Assembly (NCBI GenBank): GCA_021108215.1
Contig: JAIORK010000012.1
Coordinates: 1-64,000, forward strand
Origin: a bacterium
GTDB lineage: Bacteria > Oederibacteriota > JAAXVQ01 > JAUVAV01
Length of the DNA stretch: 64,000 nucleotides
Direction of reading: 5' to 3'
The notes under the pieces are model-generated. The model had not been told where the DNA came from. It saw nothing but the letters and a program-made list of their open reading frames with translations, and made no database searches. How positions within the stretch are numbered: position 1 is the first letter of the stretch; each line of letters starts with the position of its first letter. Positions 6,380 to 40,370 of the stretch are shown here, in pieces. The position numbers and the translations under genes were made by a program.

Positions 6380-6387
6380 GGAAAAAA

Positions 6388-9063: not shown

Positions 9064-12000
9064 ATGGTGGCTTACGTGATTAAACATAAAAAAGCCAAAT
9101 ACACTCAAAGCGGTTCAAAGCAACAAACGCTGCTATCCAGTTGGTATTGTCCGGCGCGGCTTGCTTTAGGTAAAGTGATTAGTCTGCTTATCTCTTTGAC
9201 ATTTATTCTTCCCTCCATTTCCTGGGCATTTGAGACCCAGACGTTTATCAACCGCAATGCCATTCAGTTTAAAAACCATTCCATTGCTGTACCGGTATCC
9301 AATGGGAAAATTGTCCAATCTTTTCAAGGTGAGAAACAGCTGGTGATTCATATCCAGGATTTGCACTGTCATCACGAAGTGCAAAAAAATATTGCTGAGA
9401 TCATTGATCACTTTTCAGATAGTTTGAATTTGAAATTGGTTGCGCTCGAAGGTGCAAGCCGGCCTGTCAATGTAACCAAACTCTCCACATTTCCTGATGT
9501 TAAAACAAAAAGATTTACCGGTGATCAGTATATGCGCCAGGGGAAAATATCCGGCGCCGAATACTATGCCGCGACCGGACGGTTTCCCGTGGTGCTGGAA
9601 GGGATTGAAAATGCCGAACATTACCGGCAGGGGCGTGAGCATGTTCTTTCTTTTCTTTCTGATGAGAGTCAGGGGTATGTCTGGGACATCCGGGATACTC
9701 TCCAGCAGTTAAAACCGAAAATTTATAATGAAGCCCTCAGGGCATTTGACCGCAAGCGCTCCGCTTTCCGCGAGGGGAAGCTCTCTTTATTTCAATACTG
9801 CCGTTTTCTTTACAAAGATGCCCGCGAAAACCGCTATGATCTGGATTCTTGTCCACAGTTGGCCGGCTATGCCAAGGGGCAGTCCGACGTTTTTTCGCAT
9901 ACAATTGATTCAGACCGGCTTTACCGCGAAATGGACCGCGTGGATGCGGACCTGCGTGAGCTGCGTTATACACATACTGATCAGCGTAATTTGGACCAGC
10001 TTTTTCACCGGTTGGATATCATGGAAAAAATGCTTTCCATCTCGGTCTCTACCGGAGAATTTGCCGAGTACCGTTCCCAACCGTATCTTTTTAAGATCAA
10101 TACATTTCAGAAATTTATTGAGCGGCATGATTCGCAGGGCGATCTTGCTCTGGAACCGGCGGTATATCAGATTGAGGGATATTTAAAAAAAGTTGAGTTG
10201 TTTTATGCCAATGCCGATGTACGCAGCCAGGATTTTGTAGAAAATGTTTTAACTAAAATGGACCGTCACAGCACGTCAGCTGCGATTCTGATCACCGGCG
10301 GCTATCATACGCAACATATTCTTGATTTGTTAAAGATGCAGAATATTTCTTTTGTTTCGATCAAACCAAAATTGACCCGGGCGGATGTGGTGAATCCTTA
10401 TTTTAGCTTGCTGCGCAAGCGCCGCACACCGCTGGAAAAATTACTTGCAAAGAATCAGACGATTTTTGCCTTGGAACCTTTCTTTGCACAGTTTGATCAA
10501 GCCAACGCTTTGGTGAGTGAGACCAACCTGCCCGAAGATGTTCGTATCGGCTATCGCATGCTGGAACTAAGTCTTAAACTCAATACGATTCATTTCATGC
10601 GCCAACAAGGTATTTCGAATCTGGATAATTTACAGGAACAGTATCAAACCCTGCTGGACAAGTATGCAGCGGACAGCCGCACCGTGCAGCCGGATTTTTC
10701 GAGAGCGATCCAATCCGGGAAAACGTTTATGGTTCCGGTGAACAATGATTTCTTTGCCGCCATCTATCCGCGCAATCAGGCGCGGATGCTCGGCGGTACT
10801 GTGCTCCAGAGTTTTCTTTTACAAAATTTTGAAATAGGTTTTTTTGATCAAAGCGAGTGGACACGTATGGCAGGGATGCTTCAAAAGCGTGGTCCGGTGG
10901 CAACTGTGGGAGGGTTGGTCCGGGCCCAATTGGTTCAGGCATTGTTGCCCGGGGGCGCTGTGATTATGAACGGTGCACTGATTTTGACCGCACGTCCGGC
11001 CGGTGCGCTTGTTTTGCAAGTGGGTTTGGGACGGCAGTTGCGTACGCGCTGGCGGAATTCGGGCAGTGCATTGAAAAAGGCGGTTGTCAATCTGAACGCG
11101 CGTATTCGTACGATTGATTTGAATACAATGATTGCGGATCTGCAATTGCGCCGTGCCTGGATGGTGCCATTGGGATTCGGTATGGTGGTGATCGGAGTTG
11201 CTCTGGGCTGGGGTGCGGAGGCTTATTTCCGCATCAATGTGCTGACCCACATTTTTCAGGGAACCGGCACATTCGCCATGGCAGCCGGTATGTTCGGCAT
11301 GATTAAAACGCCGAAATGGAATTTGGATAATACGGGCCGGGTCCAGGTTATGGAGCACCACCACTATATTCTTGATGTTTTGCGTGGGATCGCCAAACGC
11401 GGTCCGCCCGCTTTGGTGGTTAATTTTGACGCCCATCGCGATGCCGACGGTGCCGCACCCGAAGGCCGGTGGATCAATGACGCAAAAAAAGAAAATATTG
11501 TCGATAAGGTCGCGACATGCCCTTTGCGGCCCCGGCATTGGTCTTTGCAAAAGGATGTTATCAGCCAGGTGCTGATGCAGGCAAAAAAACAGGGCAGGCC
11601 CGTTGTGCTCTCCTTTTGTCTCGATTATTTCTCCTTGGGAAACAGATATCCCATGGGGGATCAAAATCCCTACCATCTTTCTCCCAACCAAGTCCGCGAG
11701 GAAATTTTGGAAATTTTGCAGTTTTTTCAAAAAAACGGCATTACACCGGAACAATTGGTTATCGCCCGTTCGCGGGATTATTTAAATGCTCAAGCTGATG
11801 AAGCGTATATTGCCATGTTGGAACAAAATTTGCGTAAACATCTGGCGCAGGCAATGCCGGCACCTGCGGAAGATGTTGATCGGGCTGATTCGGCAATTAT
11901 GCGGAGTATTCGCGCGATGACCATGGCTGCCGGGCACAAGGGGCTGTGGTACCGGTTTAAAAAAATGCAGGACAAAAAAGCCAAAACGGAATTGATTAAA

Positions 12001-15000
12001 ATTTATCAGGTACGCATTCGGAAAAACGCAATTGTCTGGAAGGCGCGAAGGAAAATCACGCTTACTGAAGCCAACCGCGACAAGTTAACGAATGAAAAAT
12101 TTATTGCTGTGGGCATGCAGGCCCTGACGGCATTTATCAATGCATTTGATCCCTGGCAGGAGACGAATTTTTTCCCGGCATTGGATGAAGCGGTGCGAAA
12201 AGCCCTGGAAAAATACATTGCCGAGTTTGAAGGTGCAGGTCGTTCTACAGTTGCGGACAGCCGGGATGTTTTGGCAGTTGAACCGTTACGGCCGTCTCAG
12301 GGACTGAAAATTTATGACAGTTTGAAAAAAACGGGAGATGTGAAATTAATCGGCGGGCACAAGAATTTATGGCTGCGTTACAAAGGAAAGGGCGATGTGG
12401 CGGCCCGTGATTTACTGGCGGAAAAATATCAATACCGTGTCAATCGCCTGGCAGACAACTGGTTGACCTGGCTGGATACGCAAGCTGCCAAGACCGAAGG
12501 ATTGATCAGCCATGAAGAACTCATCCAGGTAGGTCAATTGGCCTTATTGGAAGCGCTTGAGAGTGTGGATCCGCTCAAGGTAGTGAATGCCTATGAAAAG
12601 ATGGATACAATGATTTACCGGGCCATTGAAAGTTATTTGGAACAGTATACAAAACTGGATATTCAATTTTGGGGCGCCGTCAGTACACCTGAGCATGATA
12701 TTTTACAAAGTGAAAAAGGGAGGCAGATCCAATCAGTACTGGATAAATATCTCGATGCGCGCGAGCAGGAGATGTTGGCCATGTATCTCATAGATGGGAT
12801 GACCATGGAACAGATCGGCGACGCCTATGGGATGAAAAGCGGCCGCAGCCGGCCGCATCAAATTATTACGAAAGCTTTGCGAAATTACGGCGGGAGGATT
12901 CGCAAGGAACTTAATACCATAGGAATCGATCTGGATGCCTTGTTGCGCGGGCCGGTTACAGGCGGTATCATGCCCTGGTTGAAAACCGGGCTGGTTCGTC
13001 TTGGGTTGCGGCCGCAGACGTATGATCGCTGGGTGGCAGGTGGTTTGGAAAACGGCTTGGCAATGCTGGGAGGATATGCGCTGGCACCTTTGGCGATTTT
13101 TGCCGCAGCCGGTTTGGGATTGGATGCAAATGTACTGACAACCGCGCACGCGGGCTGGGTGGTGTTTTTCGGTCTGCATTTTGTACAAATGCTTGCCGGT
13201 CTGACGTATAAATTCCGGGGGTTGACTATACCGGAAAGTTTACGCGCTCCTCATTGGTCAACCGGCGTTTTGGCCGGTTTGATGGCTTTGCTTGGGATTT
13301 CGTTTGGGTTTTCTCCACTGACCTGGCAGGGGTTGTTGGTTCATTATGGCATTAACTGGACCGCGGCGGTTATTCAAAGCGGTGTGGCGGATCGATTCCT
13401 GGCATGGGCGGGGATGGATAGTCATGCCGCGTTGCGGCGTGAAATTCAACAGCGGTTTCAATTGGTGTTTTCAGACAAGCAGCGTTTATCCCGCACGGTG
13501 CTGCAGGCCTTTGCACGGGGGGTAACATCCGGCAGTCTTAGTCTGACACATATCAGCCGCAAATTCACTTATGACCTGACAGTTCATCGTAATCCGGATA
13601 CATACACCCGGGAGGAAGTGGAACAATTTACCTTTAAAGGGGCACTTTTTGATTATATGGATACCTGGCCCAATCGGCTGCGCCGTTCGGATATCTTGGT
13701 GGGTGATATGCTGGATCAGATTGCGAAGAATAATCCCGGCCGCCGGCTGCGTTTCCTGGAAGTGGGCGTGGGTATGGTGCCGGTGACTTTGAAGCAGACG
13801 TATAAAAATTTAAAAAAACGCATGGATGTTTCCGGACATGAGATTGATCTGATCGGTGTTGATCGGGCGGAACCAGGTGCTGTTGTCATGCTGGAGGACT
13901 GGGATTTAATTGGTATTTTTGACAAACAAGGCGAATTGCTTTCCTTGATGCGGATGGATGATACGGTCCCGATAGACCAACTGGTCGGAAATATGGGGAG
14001 GGTCTTGGGACGGCTCCGCGAAAAACGGCAGCGCTTGATAGATCAAGCCGGGCAGGCAGGCCGCACACAACATGAGTATTATACCAGGGAGGGAAGTGAA
14101 TTCCTCAACCCCTGGGAAGAGATTGCGCGTGATTTTGAAAATATGACTATGCTTCGCGCCGATGCCCGTCACCTGGTATTGCCGGAACCGGTGGATGTCA
14201 TCCGCGCCCCCAACATTCAGATTCACTTTTCGCCCCAAGACTGGGAACAGGTGCGCCTGCAGATGACCTCCAATTTGCGCGAGGATGGATTTTTTCTCGA
14301 ACTTTCCAACAATGTTGCCGGGGACATGGATATGTATGCGGTTTATCAGAAACGCAACAACCAGCTTGTCCAGTTGACACCGGTTGAAGTTTACAGAGCG
14401 GGATTGCTGCAAGGAACTGCTTTGCAATCGGTTTCTATGGCGGTCTATGATCGGATGATTGCGGCACAACCCGGGGTCTTGAATGTGATACGGCATCTTG
14501 CCGAGGCATATGGGGCGGGTTTTACGGAATGCTTTATCCTCGGACAATGGGGACGTGCTGATTTGGGTGCGATCCACGCCGATGCAGCGATTGAGATCGG
14601 CATTGCCAACCGTTCCCTGCCCAGTGCTGAAGTACTGGCGCGATGGAAAGAACAATTTAATATTAGTGTTAAACGGATTGATGATCCGGTTGCTGCCAAC
14701 CGCCGGGGAATTTCCATTCCGGTAGCCTACTTTTCCGTGCGCGGTGGATCGTTTATTGGCCCATTAATTTTGAAATACCATCAATTGTTGAAAAAACGCA
14801 ATCAAGCGCAACAGGTTCTTTTTACGCCCGCCACCGGTTTGCAACAGACAGTACGCGCGGTTGAGGGAAAATCTGTTCGACCTATTGATACCGGCGGCGC
14901 GCTGGGGAAATTTGAATTCAAGGAAATATCCGTCATCACGCCTGAGTCGGTTACGATTTCCCGGGCGGAGCGCGACATGCTCTTGGGAAAAGAGAGCGCC

Positions 15001-36000: not shown

Positions 36001-36855
36001 AAAATTGCTGTTGGGAAAATTTGGACTCAAAAACAAATTGAGGCATGGATTGATCACATGCAGGCAAGCGGCAACACACCTGATTGGAGAGCGCTCCAGG
36101 ATGCGGCCGATGCGACCCGCATGGCGGTTTTTTTAAATATGCTGGGTAAACAGCCTGCGCTGGCGTATGCCAATTACCCGGAATTCAGGCTTGATTTAAG
36201 CCGTCTGCCGCAACGTTTGGAAGAATTTGGTCATGATTTTGGAAATATTATTAATCAAAGTATGATTGTGACAATTGCGGAGAAATTGTCACATCTTCCG
36301 AATTATCTAAAAATCAAGCAGTTGATCGATTCAATCCAAATGGCATGGGCGCAGGATTTGGGAATGATTATGGATATTGTTTATGAGGCAAAACGGCAGG
36401 TTTATCAGGAAATTGCCGATACCCAAGGTGAAATAGCGGCCAATGAAGCGGTCAAAGCCGGGCAGGTTGAATTGGTGCGCAAGCATATTGAACTTTTGAA
36501 AGCGGGAGGAAAAAAATATCAGCAAGACTTGATCGAAGTTTATACGACCTTTTTAGAGAAAGACAGGCACTCGCAGGCTGAGTTTCAAGTGCTTACCCAA
36601 GTCGGTTTGGCAATTGCTTTTCGGGAATTGTCACGGACAGTCACTGCGGTGAAGGATGACTATAAAGATTTTTATACAGGCTTACGTGATCCGGTGAGTG
36701 CGGAGCAGGAGCAGACAAAGGATATTCGGGAAGGGTTGCTGCTGCTTTATCCCCGGTATATCTTTTTGGCGGAAAATCTCTCGTCAGCGGAAATTTTCGA
36801 TCTGGATGAGGGCGCATGCTTTATGTGCTGGCCCGGGAACATCTGCATATTGTGA
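9064..36855 (+). CDS. Giant multidomain protein, 9,263 residues
   Basis: One frame of 9,263 codons without a stop. Approximate residue map: signal/anchor 34-55; TIKI/ChaN-like 93-450; UPF0489-like 760-925 and 2296-2500; sigma-70-like 958-1291; TM module A 1303-1450 and B 5819-5966; methyltransferase-like 1510-1780 and 8120-8300; HE(L/A)GE modules 1948-2176, 2573-2779 and 4790-4993; HAD-like 2796-3220 and 5005-5430; TM-zincin modules 3828, 6808, 8314 and 8758; phosphoesterases 5478-5796 and 7778-8113; ~80-residue repeats 6046-6643; Kdo-transferase-like 7180-7500; rhomboid 8533-8738; kinase-like start 9000-9263. Residues 3225-3820 and 4120-4770 are unrecognised. The ATG at 9064 lacks a clear ribosome site. 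The tail after about residue 9249 looks out of frame, and the protein probably continues at 36816-39851. The role is unknown; a membrane-bound regulatory and protease protein is inferred. Confidence 0.9.
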   Translation: MVAYVIKHKKAKYTQSGSKQQTLLSSWYCPARLALGKVISLLISLTFILPSISWAFETQTFINRNAIQFKNHSIAVPVSNGKIVQSFQGEKQLVIHIQDLHCHHEVQKNIAEIIDHFSDSLNLKLVALEGASRPVNVTKLSTFPDVKTKRFTGDQYMRQGKISGAEYYAATGRFPVVLEGIENAEHYRQGREHVLSFLSDESQGYVWDIRDTLQQLKPKIYNEALRAFDRKRSAFREGKLSLFQYCRFLYKDARENRYDLDSCPQLAGYAKGQSDVFSHTIDSDRLYREMDRVDADLRELRYTHTDQRNLDQLFHRLDIMEKMLSISVSTGEFAEYRSQPYLFKINTFQKFIERHDSQGDLALEPAVYQIEGYLKKVELFYANADVRSQDFVENVLTKMDRHSTSAAILITGGYHTQHILDLLKMQNISFVSIKPKLTRADVVNPYFSLLRKRRTPLEKLLAKNQTIFALEPFFAQFDQANALVSETNLPEDVRIGYRMLELSLKLNTIHFMRQQGISNLDNLQEQYQTLLDKYAADSRTVQPDFSRAIQSGKTFMVPVNNDFFAAIYPRNQARMLGGTVLQSFLLQNFEIGFFDQSEWTRMAGMLQKRGPVATVGGLVRAQLVQALLPGGAVIMNGALILTARPAGALVLQVGLGRQLRTRWRNSGSALKKAVVNLNARIRTIDLNTMIADLQLRRAWMVPLGFGMVVIGVALGWGAEAYFRINVLTHIFQGTGTFAMAAGMFGMIKTPKWNLDNTGRVQVMEHHHYILDVLRGIAKRGPPALVVNFDAHRDADGAAPEGRWINDAKKENIVDKVATCPLRPRHWSLQKDVISQVLMQAKKQGRPVVLSFCLDYFSLGNRYPMGDQNPYHLSPNQVREEILEILQFFQKNGITPEQLVIARSRDYLNAQADEAYIAMLEQNLRKHLAQAMPAPAEDVDRADSAIMRSIRAMTMAAGHKGLWYRFKKMQDKKAKTELIKIYQVRIRKNAIVWKARRKITLTEANRDKLTNEKFIAVGMQALTAFINAFDPWQETNFFPALDEAVRKALEKYIAEFEGAGRSTVADSRDVLAVEPLRPSQGLKIYDSLKKTGDVKLIGGHKNLWLRYKGKGDVAARDLLAEKYQYRVNRLADNWLTWLDTQAAKTEGLISHEELIQVGQLALLEALESVDPLKVVNAYEKMDTMIYRAIESYLEQYTKLDIQFWGAVSTPEHDILQSEKGRQIQSVLDKYLDAREQEMLAMYLIDGMTMEQIGDAYGMKSGRSRPHQIITKALRNYGGRIRKELNTIGIDLDALLRGPVTGGIMPWLKTGLVRLGLRPQTYDRWVAGGLENGLAMLGGYALAPLAIFAAAGLGLDANVLTTAHAGWVVFFGLHFVQMLAGLTYKFRGLTIPESLRAPHWSTGVLAGLMALLGISFGFSPLTWQGLLVHYGINWTAAVIQSGVADRFLAWAGMDSHAALRREIQQRFQLVFSDKQRLSRTVLQAFARGVTSGSLSLTHISRKFTYDLTVHRNPDTYTREEVEQFTFKGALFDYMDTWPNRLRRSDILVGDMLDQIAKNNPGRRLRFLEVGVGMVPVTLKQTYKNLKKRMDVSGHEIDLIGVDRAEPGAVVMLEDWDLIGIFDKQGELLSLMRMDDTVPIDQLVGNMGRVLGRLREKRQRLIDQAGQAGRTQHEYYTREGSEFLNPWEEIARDFENMTMLRADARHLVLPEPVDVIRAPNIQIHFSPQDWEQVRLQMTSNLREDGFFLELSNNVAGDMDMYAVYQKRNNQLVQLTPVEVYRAGLLQGTALQSVSMAVYDRMIAAQPGVLNVIRHLAEAYGAGFTECFILGQWGRADLGAIHADAAIEIGIANRSLPSAEVLARWKEQFNISVKRIDDPVAANRRGISIPVAYFSVRGGSFIGPLILKYHQLLKKRNQAQQVLFTPATGLQQTVRAVEGKSVRPIDTGGALGKFEFKEISVITPESVTISRAERDMLLGKESADETVISVLASPRIRIVAYPIDAQGKVNRNEELEFHVTLRELNQTQISKVEQSLRRFRHIRDTKIGWYGRDRRALNAMSTQAETLLQASGDAVNLTSGLNGFYIISHVEVKRGPPDAVFNGMATAQAVLLDAKLFDTLKVFDAALIHELGESLGYKHTFLRGLGHKARIAKGRLLKPKEKGFVGRILGNWTQNRLTQWLAVNRPQSKAAGLTTPLLSQGELDALNQMLQSEKADTGLDVLESMTEDLRLYPKELYHKRELGAHLDAFDKVHYEFVETDSQMKEGYWRFKDSRAVGVGQVELVLGSWQDVQKKSPVNHQKMDVHVVERFKHPDGSIVSCYYFDDHAFSVPYAMEAVARGEMPRNGNTQLFLDEHYDFMDILTASGFPDEQKFFRASRTLREWFAGIKKYIFMNNLNWILGSAGFLKRHIWIFDSESRYFIEQNEPDDVVAMEKQVNDHRVEYIATGFLKYFQMKNRPKNEKVLFNIDTDVVGDRLGVGDVRQSALIGRGQALRLLAEFLFRVAKNDGVTPLSFQANTTADLKTYGDVAIVRFLARIAPVILLGTGKLTAEQFAQILENSIQTHKASVQINPKRSDEFVGAIGKLDIREVRVIAKDKLRISGHPLDAKGKPITDETVEFEVSVRALTAPERSLVDAARDRIKKINTEKKDWHQNDQDVLDACLRQAGKMDRLTRHEINLLQRIQGVYVITEAKVIRGSPDAVFAGMGFSEAVLLDESLFRDGNEQAFSAAYLHELGEALELSRVTHVFLRGLGKKQRVARRRALNWAELGFVARVLGNEFQAKLTSLLEIQKRHKSVLWEAELARQEAMREAYPAGWESEYASELAAIEAEADAAYQEVKGERPRQNRVMDPQVRRERYLNQIPDGFDPTAKVQIKGMVMDIDLTITPGSKLPIAAKALQQIKRALKAGVPVLLNSGSPGRVAQTGKLYTNLRGEFETETILHEEQALEVRIIKQIVDEMKRTQDQRYLVNLEIQGDSGKEHFNFNRRGEAIFRKTEAAEATPVEQITLGRALAIAYLQVLARQGHDFSKPIEALGASDNFVEMRSIFESAVQGKTSAFFLRYNSEINISSHDFIVDGRDVLKTAQRNLKEQGYVLDTEKFRASAGRDYLKYSCIRKIDSVRQWAGRNSREGVLLAMGDSRTDDFLFEAVPGEIVFPVFLSHAAVIADKPGVIVARRESGYSNVGHVASALAMQNFLDAQEAGATYSELRFLDNRYSVMAMFGELIFTTGDITAIRSKPAVTKAVVAEVIEEQTQDTGQNRDLKKLKGSGGFALKGRKNEILHLAKGTFETLAAENLPRVAAQSILTEARLDEADMIPVSRQFVTLSPAVVRDIRQRLRKVRERILDEKSFSEAEFDLDVFITRASFVSASMFKSPTRQRHQLYLDWRILQNEDWLYMSVKRELTKLRLQSLLPDSEPGLVELAALVFVNLREFIKLKNWNRRRAEQLAAECRRTTAEQAGLTPLYQSILADNNLTDEYALLPEVMTFMAGRNIYTAEASNQFRREIWQPGTKLRDKLMSLRMNSLDRFLEDSRLIIGETEMISLTELQAEKDLAPVLQRFLPFAEDVWVKQIGENYFIRVRLEDEPGRTEFAYLYFGDKDDPKKVLSERGTLAGLRFNEWVRTARSHFTDPYEGYGVAREENWQRLLDLPITKLIQKLNDYNLQHGKRDITKSLRRLFRRLFGNLGLNENRLSAQTWRSLTNKLRRKSKPSEYNILLNKYLLYYLNMLYPKQFLGKINVRDKAVEFLPLWVINQNPAMKPAALDWMFKLRSPAPPGYYYQTNKVDLRTVLDRLGAKHLREAEQSAAQITGIQLELPFTERDAAGFKVAPKKPKRPIFNLGLAGVLSGLVLDLIFMASGVTNNLGFGIGLSFFLFGYFAYRLPDVWGYLTKADRAYELRDLREDLKKLQGVRLKVPVPADWLPWINGHTETVPGDLQKIQIKSLKISPWRLLFLFGVSSYFNPGTKTLAFHQNLRALPQSRRLRVVAHEITHYLTDQQAQAEQRWWQRISVLVWVVAEWKSLGAEMQQARGSRREQQAARTAARLLQQKQKASATDQMEKTGQLAARSAQAEYFPAWKFATLSLMVWSTLNLLGVIAFAPGDENALGLIFGGFWQKLDLKGKPRQPEVASERNTLYVKQGSRWVYKEMLGKKKRINIDEDFKNAGNVLVKNVYTDAGGGLSFGGKKFWRTYGVVKNKKDITLEFSAGELIRVWSGDPYPEHEINKRDRAVSLVWVKSMGDFLEQDVSFLGLRVQEVDQKKLAKAILEKVQSGLEVGDREKFIEKAAVLDLTNDSELIRLILEVIGGKKELLSTLIERFQEKISMVRILADMDKLLAMYSLRKKYNKPIDFFVILASLQRRGNWNENLKLLDEYLPTGTQVFLTAVVRYKKDPKLIREMIEMLRVENINDKNITVILKNVDSMEKISRCLELVRPVGKTQQSVLVRFLMKKGTLDDLMYVFEIWRAKIRPVDLGTLNDIIQNYLSASVKKELIAEVRSLHAFQAGLPDLTDAAVRSQRSYLAFRSRVRKLRFDEIDLLIRTVAPEKALETAGFIKARNRADLQLLGVYLGKYSNCRSYKQVRVLAGELDYKVFWEDMGKLLYSLDAEVCSKTRNLITKLYFTRLAYFEKRGSAEYDAAIDSLMQALRNYDVYYGFLNGWKKVIVFPQYVKSYFNLTGVKAKYSDVPRPLWAIMIEANKNIGRAIRLGQDMDNEILTRALQEKKYSAAKIAQYFEYVVDYRSQVRTDSEVVYQNKRVDIYETIGTIPEEFKDEFPDWERERFNGDSVWQEAGAIGKIKPHQIDVVDKDTINIKGVAINEQGLPDQNQPIELNVKLRWFSDIELKKTVDVRDLILQVQQLKKHKLSKKDQQLMEAVLNVLDKHLSIHRSGSMDLLKSFDGLFIIERVDVVQGPKDMVFKGLGLSKALLFDEVYFQGLPATSLLGALLHEAGEATDLSWANHRYLRGIGKKARAEKQGDLTDDEKGFVARIFGNIAQDKLTELSLKNSAVTDEAELARQEAMREAYPAGWESEYASELAAIEAEADAAYQEVKGERPRQNRVMDPQVRRERYLNQIPDGFDPTAKVQIKGMVMDIDLTITPGSKLPIAAKALQQIKRALKAGVPVLLNSGSPGRVAQTGKLYTNLRGEFETETILHEEQALEVRIIKQIVDEMKRTQDQRYLVNLEIQGDSGKEHFNFNRRGEAIFRKTEAAEATPVEQITLGRALAIAYLQVLARQGHDFSKPIEALGASDNFVEMRSIFESAVQGKTSAFFLRYNSEINISSHDFIVDGRDVLKTAQRNLKEQGYVLDTEKFRASAGRDYLKYSCIRKIDSVRQWAGRNSREGVLLAMGDSRTDDFLFEAVPGEIVFPVFLSHAAVIADKPGVIVARRESGYSNVGHVASALAMQNFLDAQEAGATYSELRFLDNRYSVMAMFGELVFTTGDITAIRAKKDTVAAISDVEKIKALLDKLQTLRAGIAGKQFKRAAHVFDVHSEPKILEEIMSRVELGMIDEVIIHGDSFDRARNNRATFALLKKLKEQLGDNCIILLGNHDVAMLRALLLNDVAALVEWYRIGGKEFMKEIGVKSDILKEISKAAAAVRQNRPVDKGMEHRLYFVLEEERSFSQARQVAHWMLQNAGIYNVDERGALNVHAGIPLDDDAQPLIDFTTLNSLQKELTELQAEFNKKPSLDEQQHATLARILTEANEIFEVRDEDWLGKLVDSSKTLDEKKLQSLLDAFGVQIIIFGHMYYKEFRDVAKRLFGGDTWKQRALIHDYEGIKSTYAETPQKFELILDNKQYIKRIDRQIEQLQALLPDSEMDGVTTGKVLGGGIMPWFRAVFVKLGIQPETYDRWVAGIAENYISARVGTVVLAPLVIWAAASLGFDASGITADQTGWLAFVGMHFIQMLGGLVYKILGREVPVGLRAPPLGDGILAGIIALAGMGLGISPLSLGGVALHYTVNWLAPYLKNQLQLSNQLSVLGALTGISLAAAIVTGNPLVVGTVLLIATGIITNWDNYLTQRFAQVMPGIRVVFPDWLWQPSIVMMAKGKRRGGGKTVTTEDRRLRNQAYQARQFRKALQPGQVWVDFDETIESSVRLNSEEAGQLIKNGEWSWRLLNDRVVVQPKKGSVQDFINRFEDDRAAKAAELYDWMSDQGIHLAALEGLADEVSLLNMDEIIEGIENGGITTVYDPESGRIELRAVGISAEIYMETILKQRIRLAQDFLDEFREDEVIQMGFDMTESEAAAIPEFFRLGLPNTAEVAQGIRAGHLTYRLQADGEIRLRLTGMTVQDYYAALQKSRTELVAAFEKALPANPLYIDLESDTGREVFTGFNRPNIVETIAGLTQGKLNWRMNEKTNRLEVYVVDMGTAEYMAEVTAARSQAADDYAKTVQPGQIYLVRSTAQEKQISDNVWPTVEEVDRYLREGRLVFSEQNGVKKAGVVGKPQLFFSLIEKNRKALERLLLSPLPETGVIFIDLMDKDGQVIQSETRPNAFETVRHIRSGRLVPVITDSGYGVRVAGMDAKDYAEEIRQTRLASADEFLKTFTESPLEDIRNGSIRGSVSEDAALVRAAIAPFGFANHRRESYRAIAQGRMVWSFENKVLARHVVGLSIVDFVEDMIDERQTMADEVLAFMRENALERIAVAEAIQPAGEKGVQKKVLPKKKKGKKVKVSKSERERRKLARQAEMLTLFEAYRSIVMGQVVPKRLRDGRLELEPVDLEKKELIFAVKTGRKGKQIPAIAAILEDDTKLAMGGVTLTKDEIIRGLAMNALELDHSVEPSGLKIMAGFPESAFVSAVLAEREAREQAGKEPFGTNKTIAVLGLLPTALAVVLEILLVAGGSHFDIAWGAGLFLMTVAYFAYRLPMVWGYFRQAVQPYALRDLRDDLRKLQGVRLKVPLPDEWSGWLDGRTAEVPAVLQQLKIRSLKITPWRLLLLGGISSYYNPRNHEMGLHENLLALSTPARLRVVAHEVTHLLISETQPVARTWWTAIPGMAWLVEEVRVVLAEPRRLSVSVWEEDKPSSLPDYDVMIADAFQANQPGRALEQVQAAWAQDEGALDLTSLMIARSSLQQVLKNPELFPAEEVARLLRVIPQAVEDPTLTEAYGRITQAGLDYLAMNRARMLLTGLLSDETIAIAKKVNWLNYLLADPDKYQSASLILDWFRKSVRQGLVSMDTSWITTGDVVQLVPALLRATGMKLKLNLYETASAHAFQGLVRALHLLPKDGIVGINEERESGMRGLAARELPQWQKEAQAVVDKQTIALTFRDNQFVATPFEKGDARCLTMDYTPLKYGVSEEVPTAVIDKIRADMRLDGRQVIVLGSPARRELDVFMAEYNTLYGDLPIAERPVVIAGLRHDSVDYPETPLDILEGHQGLVRRSADEAFPDMTGKNILVLESVGELPAFYGAGDVAVVGHDRNVFEPAVQGKPVLFFGKQWEYNRDAWQGLQDADAARVFEGWVLKKFLDDPVLAREIGEKGRIYFNTFKETYIPQAAQKSALRIISSVLLQAQVRSADQPRQTVWQRLVGFAIRFLSAKQSVATAPMSGEDQVGINGDQFTFQARGRQIETVRGKLRPDTGLGLVLKNNQGDEWVDLMVYSMPLPGIAGRGIRGTYITPALREQGLLRPLLNAYFTESPRVRQTHPSMMNLLLLDFLQQEYGFGPQKDTAQPAAWIKVETRMSVEGKPEKELLVYIENKSFLEQFQELVTEDMDVQNTYAEQKDASFRPVYVGESLVVRDQAKFDQAMASVPVIDQAETARLQSVDVPVLSAEAQRQVNDLETLRDRIANKRFARVGHVFDLHSDPAALELADAKVKAGELDEIIFHGDAFDRGRRNQETLRTLQRLKRELGDRFVMILGNHEFMLIRALLLGEVYYFLKWYGNGGREFLEELQVRSGDLAQIERAMQYHVAGKSVPEELAAYIKMMMGDKEIMRAYQAARWVLMNSRLYHKDERGSLNVHAGMPLHPNGEPVLSPRQLQQSQEVLRRLQDSLKENITLNADERGELLVLLTEMEELVWVRDAGWIDMLRDDQENIDSAKLQTFLDFYGVQTVTFGHTTYHALKNIEQRLLGADLMDENALVIHDHAGIKLVTDKRADVAEMILSNDDFVERLNRQIARLIRPVKQAETPVFATVSEAMRQSFDAFLQYRFGSRKTIRIVDLGSGPKAEFGQNLTQRLAQLGIQVEKSVSVDNGIIDRAVSGQLRVTPIDAQSLSELAKAGIAEASLDIVSINNIVDRDLLDNALRLLKPGGVLLVTFAATEEGDFVANTVEKLYQLVSTDETLSVHPVEIPDDYPQSNALEKVSYASQEVMTVVTKAAVPVKDTAKRPIFYYGFFVVFSGFLLDAVAAAIGFDAGFSFGTGISLVLLPYFLYRLPLMLDYFKPAESAYGLEDLRQDLHLLQLYPRGFSLPGHWMPWVNGDTDVVPDDVAKIKLKTLHLSPVRMVLLGGISSYFNPGKNELAFHKNIKSLPEMRRLNVVAHEMNHYLWDRQARDLGKWWKKVPGLAWLVEEVQVLRAEFILWLEREVAHARVSKVKPLDQKGKMQFGKIIKNTARGKLLLLTAIVFILQMTLTGSPWFNTMILSSTALFEAGAVWQLVTHMFLHGSLIHFAINMLFLWQVGAEVEERIGQRMFYLLYFFSGIGAGLVGALIPWLTGNPSLIVGASGALFGLLAAYSILFANRVVKLFLFFIIPVKVKAKYLGMIFGGISIAAIATGLLPFISHWTHLGGLLFGTLFFIVGWPELLKKFKLWRRASQRDKIREVFRNRNKRPIFNLGAGMAFAGIAIDAVLLLTGVHTGLGWGTGISMLAVPYFAYRLPTMRNYLKKAEEPYGLPDLRNDLRKLQGIRLKVPLPSQWLPWINGQTNELPEDIQKLKLHTLTTSPWRMLLWAGTGSYYDTARHELAFHENVKSLTPQRRLRVVAHEINHLLMAKSAKSHRVWWQKIPVLGLVVEEIQVFWSEVQMSNRHLRRVIRTMGDLPDVLIDRAPLRKIAVGKIWTQKQIEAWIDHMQASGNTPDWRALQDAADATRMAVFLNMLGKQPALAYANYPEFRLDLSRLPQRLEEFGHDFGNIINQSMIVTIAEKLSHLPNYLKIKQLIDSIQMAWAQDLGMIMDIVYEAKRQVYQEIADTQGEIAANEAVKAGQVELVRKHIELLKAGGKKYQQDLIEVYTTFLEKDRHSQAEFQVLTQVGLAIAFRELSRTVTAVKDDYKDFYTGLRDPVSAEQEQTKDIREGLLLLYPRYIFLAENLSSAEIFDLDEGACFMCWPGNICIL
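9163..9228 (+). other. N-terminal signal peptide or membrane anchor of the giant protein
   Basis: A basic N-terminus (KHKKAK and others) is followed by a hydrophobic stretch at residues 34-55, ending SISWA before Phe56. That is compatible with a Sec signal peptide or an uncleaved anchor. It implies that the following region faces the periplasm. Confidence 0.7.
9340..10420 (+). other. TIKI/ChaN-like domain of the giant protein
   Basis: IHIQDLHCHHEVQKNI followed by LVALEGAS, and about 310 residues later ILITGGYHTQHI. This spacing of an early His-rich strand, a Glu-containing strand and a late GGxH resembles the TraB/ChaN/TIKI hydrolase superfamily. The match is by pattern only. The putative metal or active-site residues are present, but I cannot align the whole domain. 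Confidence 0.4.
11346..11841 (+). other. UPF0489 (arginase-like) domain 1 of the giant protein
   Basis: VMEHHHYILDVL, VVNFDAHRDADG and SFCLDYFS occur in the order and spacing of the UPF0489 family, a relative of the arginase/deacetylase fold. There the H and D residues would bind metal. Here the FDAHRD motif and the LDYF motif are intact. No function is established for UPF0489 in bacteria. Confidence 0.55.
11935..12936 (+). other. Sigma-70-like segment (regions 2 and 4) inside the giant protein
   Basis: Residues about 1097-1203 read LWLRYKGKGDVAARDLLAEK, then ISHEELIQVGQLALLEALES and YRAIESYLEQY. This closely follows region 2 of FliA/WhiG-type sigma factors. Residues 1220-1291 contain LDAREQEMLAMYLIDGMTME and QIGDAYGM, then ITKALRNY: the helix-turn-helix of region 4. 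An earlier, degenerate region-2-like copy lies at residues 958-1053 (HKGLWYRFKKM, FIAVGMQALTAFINAFDP). Core-binding and DNA-reading helices both seem recognisable. Whether it still binds RNA polymerase is unknown. Confidence 0.75.
12970..13413 (+). other. Membrane module A of the giant protein
   Basis: About 148 residues starting GGIMPWLKTGLVRLG, with QTYDRWVAGG, three or four hydrophobic helices and LLVHYGINW near the end. A homologous module occurs at 26519-26960. I do not recognise the family. Confidence 0.7.
13590..14400 (+). other. Methyltransferase-like region 1 of the giant protein
   Basis: RLRFLEVGVGMVPVTL near residue 1561 resembles motif I of Rossmann-type SAM methyltransferases. 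A strand with an acidic residue (LIGVDRAEPG) and a late LREDGFFLEL, similar to the post-motif strand, follow. The spacing is longer than usual. The call is weaker than for region 2 at 33421-33960. Confidence 0.4.
14905..15591 (+). other. HE(L/A)GE module, copy 1
   Basis: About 230 residues: a strand-rich start (FEFKEISVITPESVTI), then a helical stretch, FYIISHVEVKRGPPDAVFNG, and LIHELGESLGYKHTFLRGLG (His2125). The motif HE(L/A)GE...H(x)(F/Y)LRG(L/I)GxKxR recurs in three modules. HExxE with a downstream His suggests a metal site related to zincins, but this is inference. The rest of the module is unrecognised. Confidence 0.6.
15950..16560 (+). other. UPF0489 (arginase-like) domain 2 of the giant protein
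   Basis: YYFDDHAFSVPYAMEA, LFLDEHYDFMD and LFNIDTDVVGD follow the UPF0489 order of an initial DDH, a DEHxD strand and a late DxD strand. It is diverged from domain 1. Putative metal ligands are present. Confidence 0.5.
16780..17402 (+). other. HE(L/A)GE module, copy 2
   Basis: It has the same architecture as copy 1: FVGAIGKLDIREVRVIAKDK, GVYVITEAKVIRGSPDAVF and YLHELGEALELSRVTHVFLR with His2729. It is followed directly by the first copy of the duplicated HAD module. Confidence 0.6.
17449..18716 (+). repeat. Duplicated 1,268-bp segment, copy 1, encoding a HAD-like domain
   Basis: Every stretch I compared in 17449-18716 matches 24076-25343 base for base (offset 6,627 bases, exactly 2,209 codons). 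The first difference is T/C at 18717/25344, and weaker similarity runs on for about 45 bases. The encoded domain starts EAELARQEAM. It has a HAD-type DxDxT motif (MDIDLTITPG, Asp2877) and a late GDSRTDDFLFEAVPG, as in sugar-phosphate phosphatases of the HAD superfamily. The nucleophile and the acidic motif are intact. Confidence 0.92.
18760..20540 (+). other. Unrecognised region of the giant protein (residues about 3233-3826)
   Basis: No family recognised. It is rich in charged helices, with a strand-rich part around FLPFAEDVWVKQIGENYFIR and YLYFGDKDDP, and a very basic stretch (SLRRLFRRLFGNLG). It lacks the repeats seen elsewhere in the protein. Confidence 0.5.
20545..21110 (+). other. TM-zincin module, copy 1
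   Basis: KRPIFNLGLAGVLSGL begins a pair of hydrophobic helices ending FAYRLP. Then come YELRDLREDLKKLQGVRLKV, SYFNP and the metalloprotease motif AHEITH (His3984), followed by a WW-containing helix. The module is about 185 residues and occurs four times. HExxH on a helix after a conserved strand is typical of zinc peptidases. The third ligand is not identified. Confidence 0.75.
21430..24075 (+). other. AT-rich helical region of the giant protein
   Basis: Residues about 4123-5004. The DNA is visibly richer in A and T than the rest of the gene, with many AAA/AAT/TTT codons. The first two thirds are predicted helical and unrecognised, possibly an alpha-solenoid (for example LLDEYLPTGTQVFLTAVVRY). 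The last part carries HE(L/A)GE module copy 3 (23425-24050). It ends exactly where the second HAD duplication begins. Confidence 0.6.
23425..24050 (+). other. HE(L/A)GE module, copy 3
   Basis: Parallel to copies 1 and 2 but more diverged: GKIKPHQIDVVDKDTINIKG, GLFIIERVDVVQGPKDMVFK, LLHEAGEATDLSWANHRYLR (His4941) and GIGKKARAEK. Like copy 2, it is followed at once by the duplicated HAD segment, so the pair module-HAD occurs twice. Confidence 0.6.
24076..25343 (+). repeat. Duplicated 1,268-bp segment, copy 2, encoding a HAD-like domain
   Basis: Apparently identical to 17449-18716 over 1,268 bases and in the same reading frame. It sits between AT-richer flanks (21430-24075 and about 25380-27100), whereas copy 1 matches its own surroundings better. 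This suggests copy 2 is the derived copy, made by recent duplication or gene conversion. Confidence 0.92.
25495..26460 (+). other. Calcineurin-like phosphoesterase domain 1 of the giant protein
   Basis: HVFDVHSEP (DxH, Asp5483/His5485), IIHGDSFDRARNN, LLGNHDVAM, NVHAGIPL and IIFGHMYY appear in the order of the metallophosphoesterase motifs GDxxDR, GNHD, H and GH. All metal ligands look present. The nearest relatives by motif style are PPP-type and Ap4A-hydrolase-like phosphatases. The substrate is unknown. Confidence 0.8.
26519..26962 (+). other. Membrane module B of the giant protein
   Basis: Homologous to module A: GGGIMPWFRAVFVKLGI, ETYDRWVAGI, matched hydrophobic helices, LRAP, ALHYTVNW. 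In A the preceding domain is the sigma-like segment; in B it is a phosphoesterase. A further hydrophobic segment follows at about 26970-27090. Confidence 0.7.
27200..28990 (+). repeat. Tandem ~80-residue protein repeats (7-8 copies)
   Basis: Residues about 6046-6643 contain seven clear units, with an eighth possible near 29110-29210. Each has a helix of the type PNxxExxxGIxxGxL, a beta hairpin ending in VxGM or similar, then DYxxxxxxxRxxxAxxF. Examples: LPNTAEVAQGIRAGHLTYRL and RPNAFETVRHIRSGRLVP. Units are 70-95 residues and well diverged. The array is followed by a lysine-rich linker (KKKKGKKVKVSKSERERRK). I do not recognise the repeat. Confidence 0.75.
29485..30060 (+). other. TM-zincin module, copy 2
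   Basis: Two hydrophobic helices ending FAYRLP, then YALRDLRDDLRKLQGVRLKV, SYYNP and AHEVTH (His6963). All landmarks of copy 1 are kept except the opening KRPIF, which is KTIAV here. Confidence 0.75.
30600..31560 (+). other. Kdo-transferase-like glycosyltransferase domain of the giant protein
   Basis: The C-terminal half matches the KdtA/WaaA GT-B fold: VIAGLRHDS, then ILVLESVGELPAFYGAGDVA, VVGHDRNVFEPAVQGKPVLF and a final helix typical of this family. In KdtA the parallel motifs are the IGEL strand and the ...EPA..GKPV nucleotide-sugar loop. The N-terminal half is much reduced, so catalysis is uncertain. Confidence 0.6.
31670..32130 (+). other. Possible acyltransferase-like region of the giant protein
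   Basis: IRGTYITPALREQGLLRPLL resembles the acyl-CoA-binding loop of GNAT proteins, and an alternating strand region precedes it. The evidence is a single motif-like stretch. Confidence 0.25.
32395..33400 (+). other. Calcineurin-like phosphoesterase domain 2 of the giant protein
   Basis: HVFDLHSDP (His7788 onward), IIFHGDAFDRGRRNQ, MILGNHEFM, NVHAGMPL and VTFGHTTYH. It is paralogous to domain 1 at 25495, and every motif is conserved between the two. The GDxxDRG and GNHE motifs are closer to classical PPP phosphatases than in domain 1. Confidence 0.82.
33421..33960 (+). other. SAM-dependent methyltransferase domain 2 of the giant protein
   Basis: IRIVDLGSGPKAEFGQNL is motif I, SLDIVSINNIVD the motif II/III region, and LRLLKPGGVLLVTF the classic post-motif strand. 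It looks like a complete class I Rossmann methyltransferase domain of about 170 residues. The substrate is unknown. Confidence 0.75.
34003..34600 (+). other. TM-zincin module, copy 3
   Basis: KRPIFYYGFFVVFSGF starts the helix pair. YGLEDLRQDLHLLQ, SYFNPGKNELAFHKN and AHEMNH (His8471, still HExxH) follow. It is followed at once by the rhomboid domain. Confidence 0.75.
34660..35275 (+). other. Rhomboid intramembrane serine protease domain of the giant protein
   Basis: About 205 residues with six hydrophobic segments. It has the rhomboid motifs HMFLHGSLIHFAINMLFLW (HxxxN), GASGALFG with the catalytic serine (Ser8655), and HWTHLGG with the catalytic histidine (His8716). The Ser-His dyad is intact, so an active intramembrane protease is expected. 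It lies between zincin modules 3 and 4. Confidence 0.92.
35335..35930 (+). other. TM-zincin module, copy 4
   Basis: KRPIFNLGAGMAFAGI, FAYRLP, YGLPDLRNDLRKLQGIRLKV, SYYDTARHELAFHEN and AHEINH (His8913). It is closest in landmarks to copy 1. Confidence 0.75.
36810..36812 (+). other. Probable frameshift site in the giant gene
   Basis: The frame in use up to here ends 43 bases later in unlikely sequence (CFMCWPGNICIL). The next frame is blocked by TGA at 36807-36809 and then open for 1,011 codons. Adding one G to the GGG at 36810-36812 joins them as FDLDEG-RMLYVLAREH and restores a histidine kinase. Sequencing error, real mutation and -1 recoding are all possible. Confidence 0.7.
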
Positions 36856-39851
36856 GCACCACTGCTTTGGAACATTCCGTGGATGTTGAGATTTTGGAAC
36901 CTACTCGAAAAATCCTTACGACAGAACATCTGGTGCAAGGTGATCACGGCCGGATACTGATATTGGTTTTGAAAAATCTGATCACCAATGCGCAGCGCGC
37001 CATTAGCCGCAAAGCCGCCGCCATGCCGGAGGAATTGCGCGAAGCCTATCTGGCTCAGACGCGTGTGGTGGTACGGTTTACTGAAGATGGTTTTGAAGTC
37101 GAAGACCAAGGTGACGGCATTGCGCCGGAAGTGGCGGAACGTCTTTTTGAACGGGGCGTCACTGAAGGTATGGGCCAGGGATTGGGTATGTTCACTCTGC
37201 GCCGGATACTGGATAAATTCGGCATGCATCTTCACGGTGAATCAACGTTCGGTCAGGGAACGGTATTCAAAGTAACCCTGACCCCGGCAGTTGTTACAGA
37301 TATTTCGCCGGTGGCCCAACAGCATCATGCGCGTTTGCAGGAAATTCATTCGGATGTCTTAAAAACCATGTTTGTCGGGGAAACCGCAGCTGAGACCGGG
37401 GAAGCCATGGATAAGGTGCTGGCAGCTGAAAAGGCGGCAATGCTACTTGTAGAAAAAGTCGAACCGCAAGTTGCTGTGCAGCAACGGTTGGATGACCTAT
37501 CAGTTGATTTCGAAGAACTTCAGTTTCAACATCAGAAGGCGGATGAAATCATTACGGCCATGCAGCAGGCATTACGCAGGCACGATATGCAGATTGGGAT
37601 AGAGCGGGGTGAAGTGCAAAATGTATTAGCTGATAATATTTTTTGGCAGTTTCGCACACAGGATTTAACTATCACGGCTTTTAAAGTTAAATATGTTTCA
37701 CACGAGGAGCATATTCTCTCCATTCGTGACCGGAAATCAGGCGAAGTGATAGGCCATGCCAATATCCAGCGCTACAATGAGAAGTCCGAATCGTGTTCAC
37801 TTAAATTTACCGTCTATCCGGCACATCGCCAACCCGAAAGAACGCAAAATGTTTCAGATCTGCTGCTCAAGATAATTAAGGAATCAGGGTTGCTTTATAA
37901 ACAATCTACTGTCCGGGAAGTGAGTTTTATTAAATCTCAGGATCCGGGAATGGCAGAGGAATGGGATCGTACCCAGGCTTTTTTGAAGAAAAATGGGTAT
38001 AATATATTGAATCAAAATGCCGCCCAATTCAGGTTTATTGAAAAAAAGATTGGGAAACGTTTTGATTTGATGACGAATATCCTGGCGTTTACCGGGTGGA
38101 CCGCGCTGACGTTGGGGTATGCCGCGTTATTACTGCAAGGCAATGGCGGTTGGTTTGCCCAGGGATGGCTGGCGATATTCAGCACAGGTGTCCTGCTCTT
38201 TGGGACGCGCAGCATCAGTGGTTTATTAGGTGCTGAAGTGATCAACCTGAGCCGTCGTTTTATTCGACCTGGACGGTTGGTGGTGAATCAGCTGCTGCAA
38301 GAACAAATCAGTCTCCAATTTGATCGGCAGGTTGATTTTGAGATGCTGGATCAGATTGACAGGCGTTTTGCGCAAACCACCTCGGACACGGTTTATTTTG
38401 CCAAGTGGCTGGTTCAGGATATCAACTGGCGAAGCGCGCCCACACGGATGCAACAGATTGGATTGGCCGCGTTGCAGGGTGTGAACCGTTTGCTGCGCAT
38501 GCTGCTGTTGCCGCATGTATTGGCTCAGGAGCAGATGCGGGTTGCGGGCAAAAGTGATCGTGCGATTTATCTTAATCCTTTTATGCCCCTGTATTACTAT
38601 TTTGCCCAGATCCTCGAATCTTTCCGCGTGATGGCTTTCAAACTCCGCATCCGATTTAGTGCTGATTACCGTAAAGTTATTCCAGAACAAAAAAACATCC
38701 CGGAGGGGATAAGTACAAGTACGAAGATAAAAACGCTTCCGGAAGAATTTAGAGAAGAAAATATTTTACACACAAAATCCGGTATTCGTATGAATGAAGG
38801 TCTGTTGATCCGGCCCTCGCGTTTGCTCCAACGCTGGCGTTTACCGCGGTTGATGTGGATGCTGATACTCTCTTTCGGATTTTCTGTGCTGGATCGTATC
38901 GCGCTGGTAATGAAATTAAGAGTCGCTGTGAATCAAATAAATCATGAAAATGCAGGACGTTTTTTTAATACAATGAAACGGCGCTATTTCCCTCACAATG
39001 ATATTGAGTCGCAAGCTTTTCGACCTGACATGATTGTTGAAGAGACCTTTTTGGGTCAAGCCGGTTTGATGGACGTTGTCGCCGGAAAGTACCGGGAATT
39101 ACCGGATGGCCGTGTTGCATTGGCTGTATACCAACCATTGCTGGCGGCACTCACATCTGATAACAAGCAATCCAGACTGATGCAATGGCGGCAGAAAATG
39201 GCTTTTGAATTGCTCCGGCACATGCTGCGTTACCGCAGCGCACAGTATTATCGCACCACACTGGCTCAGCGCATGGCAAACCAGGTGCGTGTCGGATTTT
39301 GGCAATGGGGAGAACGCCAACCGGCCCGCCTCGGCAGATGGCTGCACCGCGGACTACAGATGCTCACTCCAACAGGATATTTGAACCGGGTGCAGGCTGA
39401 ATTGGCTCGGCAGCATGCCGACCTGGACCGCAGTGCACAATTGGCGGAGATGCTGCAAGATCAGACCACGGCAATTGCCCGCGCCTATCATACGATGTCA
39501 CGTAATCCCAACCACCGGACGCGGTTGCATTTTACCAAGACAGTCATTCAATGGATCAGCCGGGTCAACAATGTCCGGCAGAGAAGTGTTGAGTTGCAAT
39601 ACTTCTCACAATTGGTCAGGAATATGCGTGCCATCAAGAGTGCCCCCGTTGCCGAATGGACCGGATTGCGCAGAAAACTGACAGCACCCAATAAACCGGT
39701 GCTTTATGTTCCGGTGGAGGTGCTGAGTTACAGGCACACGGCCGGGACGCTGCTTGATCTGCTCAGGCCCATGCCCTATAAAATTAGAGAAGTGTTTAAA
39801 AAACCATTTGCGCCCAAGCGGATCCGCACATCACCGGCCGGCGCCGCCTAG
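36816..39851 (+). CDS. HATPase/kinase domain and C-terminal membrane region (likely end of the giant protein)
   Basis: 1,011 residues. Residues 42-157 form a GHKL ATPase domain: N box LKNLITNAQRAIS, G1 box VEDQGDGIAPE, and G2 box GQGLGMFTLRR. A helical linker follows, then a possible GNAT-like region (about 285-405, LLLKIIKESGLLY). Two or more hydrophobic helices lie at about 418-470, and there is a long unrecognised C-terminus with a further hydrophobic stretch near 670-690. The histidine box belonging to this kinase (FGHDFGNIIN, His9057) lies in the preceding frame, so this is probably the C-terminal part of the giant protein, about 10,270 residues in all. As a separate gene, its ATG has GAGGG only three bases upstream, which is too close to work well. 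Confidence 0.8.
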   Translation: MLYVLAREHLHIVSTTALEHSVDVEILEPTRKILTTEHLVQGDHGRILILVLKNLITNAQRAISRKAAAMPEELREAYLAQTRVVVRFTEDGFEVEDQGDGIAPEVAERLFERGVTEGMGQGLGMFTLRRILDKFGMHLHGESTFGQGTVFKVTLTPAVVTDISPVAQQHHARLQEIHSDVLKTMFVGETAAETGEAMDKVLAAEKAAMLLVEKVEPQVAVQQRLDDLSVDFEELQFQHQKADEIITAMQQALRRHDMQIGIERGEVQNVLADNIFWQFRTQDLTITAFKVKYVSHEEHILSIRDRKSGEVIGHANIQRYNEKSESCSLKFTVYPAHRQPERTQNVSDLLLKIIKESGLLYKQSTVREVSFIKSQDPGMAEEWDRTQAFLKKNGYNILNQNAAQFRFIEKKIGKRFDLMTNILAFTGWTALTLGYAALLLQGNGGWFAQGWLAIFSTGVLLFGTRSISGLLGAEVINLSRRFIRPGRLVVNQLLQEQISLQFDRQVDFEMLDQIDRRFAQTTSDTVYFAKWLVQDINWRSAPTRMQQIGLAALQGVNRLLRMLLLPHVLAQEQMRVAGKSDRAIYLNPFMPLYYYFAQILESFRVMAFKLRIRFSADYRKVIPEQKNIPEGISTSTKIKTLPEEFREENILHTKSGIRMNEGLLIRPSRLLQRWRLPRLMWMLILSFGFSVLDRIALVMKLRVAVNQINHENAGRFFNTMKRRYFPHNDIESQAFRPDMIVEETFLGQAGLMDVVAGKYRELPDGRVALAVYQPLLAALTSDNKQSRLMQWRQKMAFELLRHMLRYRSAQYYRTTLAQRMANQVRVGFWQWGERQPARLGRWLHRGLQMLTPTGYLNRVQAELARQHADLDRSAQLAEMLQDQTTAIARAYHTMSRNPNHRTRLHFTKTVIQWISRVNNVRQRSVELQYFSQLVRNMRAIKSAPVAEWTGLRRKLTAPNKPVLYVPVEVLSYRHTAGTLLDLLRPMPYKIREVFKKPFAPKRIRTSPAGAA

Positions 39852-39957: not shown

Positions 39958-40353
39958 ATGGCGGCAATGGGGAGAAAATTTAAAATTTTGATTGTTGAAG
40001 ATGAGCCCGATATTATGGAGTTGATTGACGTGACCCTTGATTCTGATGATTATGAATTGATGAAAGCGACGGACGGAGAGCAAGGGTTGAATATGGGCAT
40101 GACCGCGTCCCCTGATCTGATTGTACTGGACATCATGCTTCCGAAAATGGATGGGTATGAAATATGTCGCCGTTTAAAGGGCGATCGCAGAACAGCTGGA
40201 ATTCCGGTGGTGATGCTTACCGCCTTTGGCCAGAAGCGGGAGATTGAAGAAGGCTATAAAGTCAAGGCGGATGATTATATTGTCAAACCATTTGAACCTG
40301 TAAAACTTCGGCAGCGGATTAAAAAATTTCTTGTTGCCCAACCATCTGCTTGA
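39958..40353 (+). CDS. Single-domain response regulator (receiver domain)
   Basis: 131 residues consisting only of a CheY-like receiver domain. Acidic pocket residues are E14/D15, the phosphoacceptor is Asp58 (LIVLDIMLP), and the switch residues Thr88 and Lys110 are present (MLTAF, IVKPFEP). There is no output domain. GGGGAGG at 39944-39950 supports the ATG at 39958 over the in-frame TTG at 39952. It starts 106 bases after the histidine-kinase-like end of the giant protein. A phosphotransfer partnership is likely but inferred. Its targets are unknown. Confidence 0.93.
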   Translation: MAAMGRKFKILIVEDEPDIMELIDVTLDSDDYELMKATDGEQGLNMGMTASPDLIVLDIMLPKMDGYEICRRLKGDRRTAGIPVVMLTAFGQKREIEEGYKVKADDYIVKPFEPVKLRQRIKKFLVAQPSA

Positions 40354-40370
40354 TTCCACTGAGTCGTCCT

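Follow-up and report, generated by a model that had tools for sequence, protein, structure and literature searches.

A Giant Mosaic Protein of Enzyme and Membrane Modules at the recG–rsmD Locus and Its Leader-Defined Family

The Locus and Its Reading Frames

The window, i.e., the whole stretch of 64,000 nucleotides analysed, contains a giant gene on the forward strand between recG (6373–8811, +) and rsmD (40350–40949, +), the latter being followed by the genes of a HEAT protein, secD and secF. The giant open reading frame P1 (9064–36855, +) starts with ATG, has no internal stops and encodes 9,263 aa. According to the ORF listing of the 64-kb window, it is an uninterrupted ORF of 27.8 kb, which is above 20 kb. 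The longest ORF in another frame inside the giant's interval is 311 aa, so the length of P1 is not a product of chance. Codon-position GC (~0.58/0.38/0.51) is constant along P1 and equal in P2, the continuation ORF of 1,011 aa (36816–39851, +), which lies in a frame other than that of P1, overlaps it by 40 nt and holds a HATPase_c domain together with the C-terminus common for the family. An earlier note made from this DNA had proposed a single very long coding frame of 9,263 to 10,270 residues. Both the frame, free of stops and uniform in codon-position GC, and the size, given by P1 and the overlapping P2, proved to be correct.

The frame break (36780–36856, +) falls within a histidine kinase (36181–37283, +), in a short G run where P1 '..AEIFDLDE' meets P2 'MLYVLA..'. 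The H-box of the kinase is located in P1, and HATPase_c (6.1e-13) with the N, G1 and G2 motifs in P2; a segment of the 'AEIFDLDE' type usually precedes the kinase ATPase domain, and the start of P2 is the continuation that matches it. Either an error in sequencing or a genuine change of recent date could account for the break, and a single chain of 10,270 aa is unproven. No relative with this kinase region unbroken was found among those compared. In one relative (G002) a single 6,246-aa ORF spans the leader through the C-terminal domain of P2, and in two others (G003, G004) the C-terminal region of P2 is likewise joined to P1-type modules within single ORFs. Judged from these sequences, one continuous frame is therefore the most likely state of the ancestral gene. 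Alternatively, the break could be real, with P1 (9,263 aa) and P2 (1,011 aa) being two genes translated separately by re-initiation. P2 has an ATG at position 36816, and GAGGG lies upstream of it at a distance suited to ribosome binding, which is in line with this. However, the break separates 'EIFDLDE' from the ATPase domain of the kinase, and in the three relatives one ORF holds P1-type modules as well as the C-terminal region of P2; separate genes are considered unlikely.

Several other features of the window were recorded. A gene on the reverse strand (48971–51481, −) encodes a beta-helix protein whose C-terminal sorting domain is of the Por-secretion type, which suggests a type IX secretion system. 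Tandem 21-bp repeats (47875–48003) are located within the gene of a DUF2914 protein. An intergenic 41-nt repeat occurs at 92–132 and 2581–2621 (85% identical), around CACCGCAGAGACGCTGAG. Two long ORFs in different frames (59426–62266 and 62038–63999) overlap by 228 nt, which could be due to a wrong start or to another frame break.

Modules of the Giant Protein

The protein had been described as a mosaic of modules that usually exist as separate proteins. This is indeed the case: most of the named modules are supported by Pfam/NCBIfam and have intact motifs. The sigma-like, phosphoesterase, HAD, rhomboid, HExxH and histidine kinase modules stood, and the methyltransferase and Kdo-transferase assignments turned out to be weak. 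The combination has no curated name, as the earlier note had supposed. All modules below are on the forward strand.

A sigma-70/ECF-like module (12403–12852) is recognized by TIGR02937 (sigma70-ECF, 8.2e-10) and Sigma70_r4 (8.5e-5). Membrane module A is present at 12721–13380 and, as found by self-comparison, at 26227–26949, the first copy showing 39% to the second. Module B, characterized by the HExGE motif, occupies 14947–15606, 16750–17427 and 23449–24045 (self-comparison, motif). The HAD module (17449–18758; motifs DIDLT, NSGS and GDSRTDD) is repeated directly at 24076–25385. The Pfam/NCBIfam E-values of the two HAD modules are 4.7e-5 and 8.2e-5, and the HAD region gave one weak match among PDB sequences, to phosphoglycolate phosphatase (0.013). 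Metallophosphoesterases with intact metal motifs are found at 25441–26469 (PF00149, 2.3e-7) and 32365–33393 (PF00149, 1.5e-9). Diverged internal repeats, designated F (27334–28968), were revealed by self-comparison and have a counterpart in G002.

Two further assignments are tentative. A Kdo-transferase-like glycosyltransferase module or its remnant could be located at 31168–31413 (PRK05749, 1.5e-3). A methyltransferase-like module (33409–34020), also present in G002, is suggested by the DLGSGP motif only; searches with this region gave no significant match in Pfam/NCBIfam or among PDB sequences. The regions of the leader, module D, phosphoesterase, glycosyltransferase and kinase were also compared with PDB sequences, and nothing useful was obtained.

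Module D combines a transmembrane (TM) segment with HExxH and is gluzincin-like. Its four copies (20512–21297, 29455–30306, 34000–34638 and 35326–35967) are defined by self-comparison and motif, the first and the fourth also by a structure match. HExxH with the downstream Glu motif is invariant in 11 copies of the module. The fold match of the module D model to gluzincins is weak (E 0.018, probability 0.87–0.93); the resemblance to small gluzincins supports the view that these modules are genuine proteases. Between the third and the fourth copy lies a rhomboid protease (34807–35250; PF01694, 4.5e-28) with GASG and HxxG (HLGG) intact and the GxSG/His dyad present. The chain is closed by the C-terminal domain of the family, ending in ..RxxPxGAA (38733–39848), which was delimited by comparison with relatives.

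On sequence inspection, the two phosphoesterases and the two HADs were found to retain their metal or catalytic motifs, and the same is true of the rhomboid, all four HExxH modules and the ATPase of the kinase. This argues against decay of the gene. Adhesin, carbohydrate-binding and cell-wall-lytic domains were not detected in the window protein by Pfam and NCBIfam, and discoidin, laminin_G and dockerin gave no Pfam match in it.

Internal Duplication

Growth by internal duplication and shuffling, with modules in several copies, had also been proposed and was confirmed by tiled self-comparison of the protein. Module D is present four times, module B three times, and HAD, metallophosphoesterase and membrane module A twice each. 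The sigma-like stretch also appears twice, the similarity of the second copy being weak. Both HAD copies lie inside a direct 1,310-bp repeat (17449–18758 and 24076–25385) of 99.7% identity. Its first 1,268 bp are identical, and all 4 mismatches fall in the final 42 bp. The repeat is attributed to duplication or gene conversion that took place very recently; an assembly effect is less likely.

Leader and Tail: A Family of Giants

The N-terminus begins with a signal-peptide-like segment (9064–9243, +; ..VISLLISLTFILPSISWAFE), which is conserved as '[T/S]WAF[E/D]' across the family. By sequence resemblance, the helix and the 'WAF' motif read like a cleavable signal peptide ('TWA|FE'). It is followed by an EreA/ChaN-like leader domain (9244–11013, +). 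The first 650 residues are 40–46% conserved in five relatives. In 12 rows across phyla IQD-H-C and EG are invariant, and GG[YF]H is kept wherever a row extends to that point; His and Glu of catalytic type are thus conserved. The leader has no match to a Pfam family. Its structure was predicted with medium confidence (pLDDT 66.6), and the best Foldseek match of the model was erythromycin esterase EreC (E 2.7e-3, probability 0.99), but the TM-scores were low (0.16–0.25). ChaN and HopBA1 were weaker, lower-ranked matches.

In a profile search, this genome gave 10 matches to the leader, most of which open a very long ORF (9269, 9482, 9337, 8763, 8636, at least 8376, 5753, 4517, 3500 and 2270 aa). 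Together, the ten leader ORFs amount to ~72,000 aa, or ~6% of the 3.56-Mb genome. In the order, the leader was detected in all eight of the eight genomes, in ~113 places; 95 of these 113 leaders belong to frames that reach 1,000 aa or more, despite many contigs being cut. Elsewhere in the phylum (45 genomes), the profile search gave only one marginal match.

The opposite end is also shared by most members. An -AA end after a basic stretch is found in 18 of the 25 leader ORFs of the order that are complete at the 3' end, and P2 itself terminates with RTSPAGAA; none of 20 other window genes ends in -AA (0/20). The tail is possibly a degradation tag or a sorting signal. As far as sequence comparison goes, the window protein is thus one of about ten giants of this genome with a common start and, mostly, a common tail.

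Among the other giants of this genome, some contain glucosamine-6-phosphate isomerase and kinases, and glycoside hydrolase modules are also found in paralogues. The paralogue of 9,337 aa (G000:C4:2956-30966; L158, L159) unites three outer-membrane-efflux (TolC-like) stretches with a SecY-like and a SecA-like one in a single chain and exists beside the normal SecA of the genome. It shows a frame break near its 3' end, followed by ~990 aa in another frame.

Cysteine is low in the giants of this genome (0.09–0.31%). The idea that the whole family is marked for export by an extreme lack of cysteine was nevertheless dropped: the contrast across the order is weaker (0.37% vs. 0.68%), so it is not taken as proof of export.

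History of the Locus and Selection

In the sister family (G006, G007) and in two more distant families (G008, G009), recG adjoins rsmD with nothing between them. Within its own family the giant between these flanks comprises 1,514 aa (G001), at least 3,099 aa (G004), 6,246 aa (G002, in which recG is on a separate contig ending 246 bp past the gene) and ~10,270 aa in the window. Since the flanks are adjacent in other families and filled in this one, the leader gene either entered here once or was lost elsewhere. The length of the giant at recG–rsmD has changed several-fold since that event. Conservation of module order in the orthologues of relatives, which had been put forward as a check, was not observed; the order is shuffled between relatives.

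Selection was estimated from two orthologue pairs of the congeneric genomes G001 and G005, the window gene itself being outside the test. The dN/dS value of these close orthologues was 0.19 for the leader, 0.31 for the leader with 350 residues beyond it and 0.51 for those 350 residues alone. Over 1,207 codons of middle sequence dN/dS was 0.37; a swapped stretch lies between the leader and the middle in the orthologues compared. At the protein level, purifying selection also acts on the middle modules, though more weakly than on the leader.

These data bear on the possibility that the giant frame is an assembly artefact or a decaying pseudogene. One near-identical 1.3-kb repeat and the frame break close to the 3' end in two of the ten leader-headed giants of the genome would agree with such an origin. 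However, the same architecture is found in independent MAGs, there are ten paralogues, the congeners show purifying selection, and the active sites are intact. An artefact or a pseudogene, already disfavoured, is very improbable.

The Leader in Other Phyla

The earlier note had pointed to an Omnitrophota-type origin. The nearest genomes are instead MAGs labelled FCPU426, Firestonebacteria and Goldiibacteriota; FCPU426 and Firestonebacteria are the labels within the same family, and Goldiibacteriota within the same order. The cross-phylum search was performed with a wider leader profile (A5). In Omnitrophota, the leader was found in 84 of 145 genomes, with ORFs of up to 35,113, 23,964 and 16,199 aa. 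At the strict cut-off it occurs in 19 of 60 genomes of Elusimicrobiota (ORFs of up to 10,988 aa). The phylum of a 'Chlamydiae'-labelled MAG has it in 9 of 44 genomes (ORFs of up to 24,620 aa).

The leader of the 35,113-aa open frame lies in Omnitrophota genome G103 (C37, near 183534-185159). Omnitrophota also encode the leader domain as a protein by itself, of 531 aa (L110:9851-11443) or 534 aa (L112:9950-11551). A leader-headed ORF of Endomicrobia (3,236 aa; L111:9836-19543) contains phosphorylase, 4-alpha-glucanotransferase and debranching enzyme domains.

The Omnitrophota connection bears on a further explanation, according to which the giant is a secreted or surface weapon or coat acting against other cells in predation or symbiosis, as proposed for the giant protein of Velamenicoccus archaeovorus. 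Omnitrophota, a phylum for which predators and symbionts have been proposed, also have leader-headed giants, and a role of this kind would be borrowed from the literature on that phylum (PMC10066038). The signal-peptide-like leader, the glycoside hydrolase and outer-membrane-efflux modules of paralogues and the low cysteine content of the giants of this genome are consistent with it. On the other hand, Pfam and NCBIfam detect no domain of the adhesin, carbohydrate-binding or cell-wall-lytic kind in the window protein, and many of its modules are cytoplasmic in type. Such a function is possible but rather doubtful.

A polymorphic toxin of the Rhs/CDI type was rejected as well. Pfam and NCBIfam showed none of its defining domains. 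Instead of a variable C-terminal toxin domain with an immunity gene, several members have a conserved C-terminal domain and tail, it is the middle that varies, and the next gene is rsmD.

Proposed Organization of the Protein

The gene encodes a genuine giant mosaic of the leader-defined family, and it is somewhat probable that this acts as an envelope-anchored multi-enzyme polyprotein, maybe cut by its own proteases. The product would be ~10,270 aa long if the break is an error or a recent mutation, and 9,263 plus 1,011 aa if the break is real. The signal-peptide-like segment and the EreA/ChaN-like domain would insert the N-terminus into the inner membrane or carry it to the other side. The middle is an exchangeable array of motif-intact enzyme and membrane modules, altered by duplication, capture and loss, and the conserved C-terminal domain with its basic tail and -AA closes most members. 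The four gluzincin-like proteases and the rhomboid may cut the chain or its neighbours; no cleavage site for self-processing was identified. A role in contact with other cells can be suggested for such a polyprotein.

Alternatively, the protein could be a cytoplasmic or inner-membrane signalling or enzyme scaffold, anchored by a leader helix that is not cleaved off, with most modules on the cytoplasmic side. The histidine kinase, sigma-like, HAD and PPP-type modules have intact motifs. A histidine kinase normally depends on cytoplasmic ATP and a sigma-like module on RNA polymerase, so that both fit awkwardly with full secretion. Positive charge ahead of the module D and rhomboid helices suggests that some modules face the cytoplasm; since charge patterns point to cytoplasmic modules, full secretion is not certain. 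Conversely, with its 'TWA|FE' the leader has the look of a signal peptide that can be cleaved off, and domains of the EreA/ChaN-like and gluzincin kinds are frequently extracytoplasmic. A scaffold of this kind is about as doubtful as a weapon or coat, and the envelope-anchored polyprotein is preferred.

An extension of the envelope-anchored polyprotein can be offered as speculation. The leader and the -AA tail might be the ends of a dedicated multi-phylum system that delivers giant polyproteins of otherwise cytoplasmic enzymes to the envelope, where built-in proteases would release them. The cargo would include kinase, phosphatases and proteases here, SecY/SecA/TolC-like modules in paralogues, and phosphorylase with two glucan-processing enzymes in Endomicrobia. 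This broader scheme is considered improbable.

Comparison with Known Systems

Giant ORFs in these phyla are already known. Seymour et al. (2023) described giant ORFs of Omnitrophota exceeding 20 kb, with several TM helices and few annotated domains, found adhesin-type domains (discoidin, laminin_G, dockerin) in the giants of Omnitrophia and reported most giant ORFs of Velamenicoccia to be poorly conserved (PMC10066038). The genes discussed here are likewise single frames of tens of kb, and their leader also stands at the start of Omnitrophota ORFs, the longest of which has 35,113 aa. In contrast, the window protein belongs to another candidate phylum and consists of enzyme modules instead of adhesin-type domains, and a common leader was found here. 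What appears to be new is that one leader is shared by several phyla, that giants of graded size occupy a single locus and that this order has intact enzyme arrays; for the leader, the claim of novelty is provisional.

In PVC-related candidate phyla, giant ORFs were described as poorly conserved and unclear in function (PMC10066038), and the common leader provides a handle on them: one profile could collect such genes, and export could be tested with a reporter. Growth of a giant can be studied at one fixed locus, from absence of the gene to ~10,270 aa within one order. Giants outside Omnitrophota carry motif-intact enzyme arrays, not adhesive repeats alone.

The leader may be related to the EreC/ChaN superfamily, as the fold match of its model suggests, and its Asp/His/Glu/His positions are conserved among the leader rows. 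It differs in the low TM-score, in having no Pfam match and in heading giant chains instead of forming a small esterase or haem-binding lipoprotein. Module D shares HExxH, the downstream Glu and a weak fold match with minigluzincins/selecase and SprT-like zincins; unlike minigluzincins, it bears one or more N-terminal TM segments and occurs in four copies per chain.

Megasynthases (NRPS/PKS) also have many catalytic modules per chain, but this identity was rejected, since Pfam and NCBIfam found no adenylation (A), ketosynthase (KS) or carrier domains. The Giant1–5 proteins of Apilactobacillus are very large surface proteins, and their genome resembles the present one in having several giant genes that make up ~6% of it (PMC12863079). 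The window protein differs from these described surface proteins in being an array of different enzyme modules.
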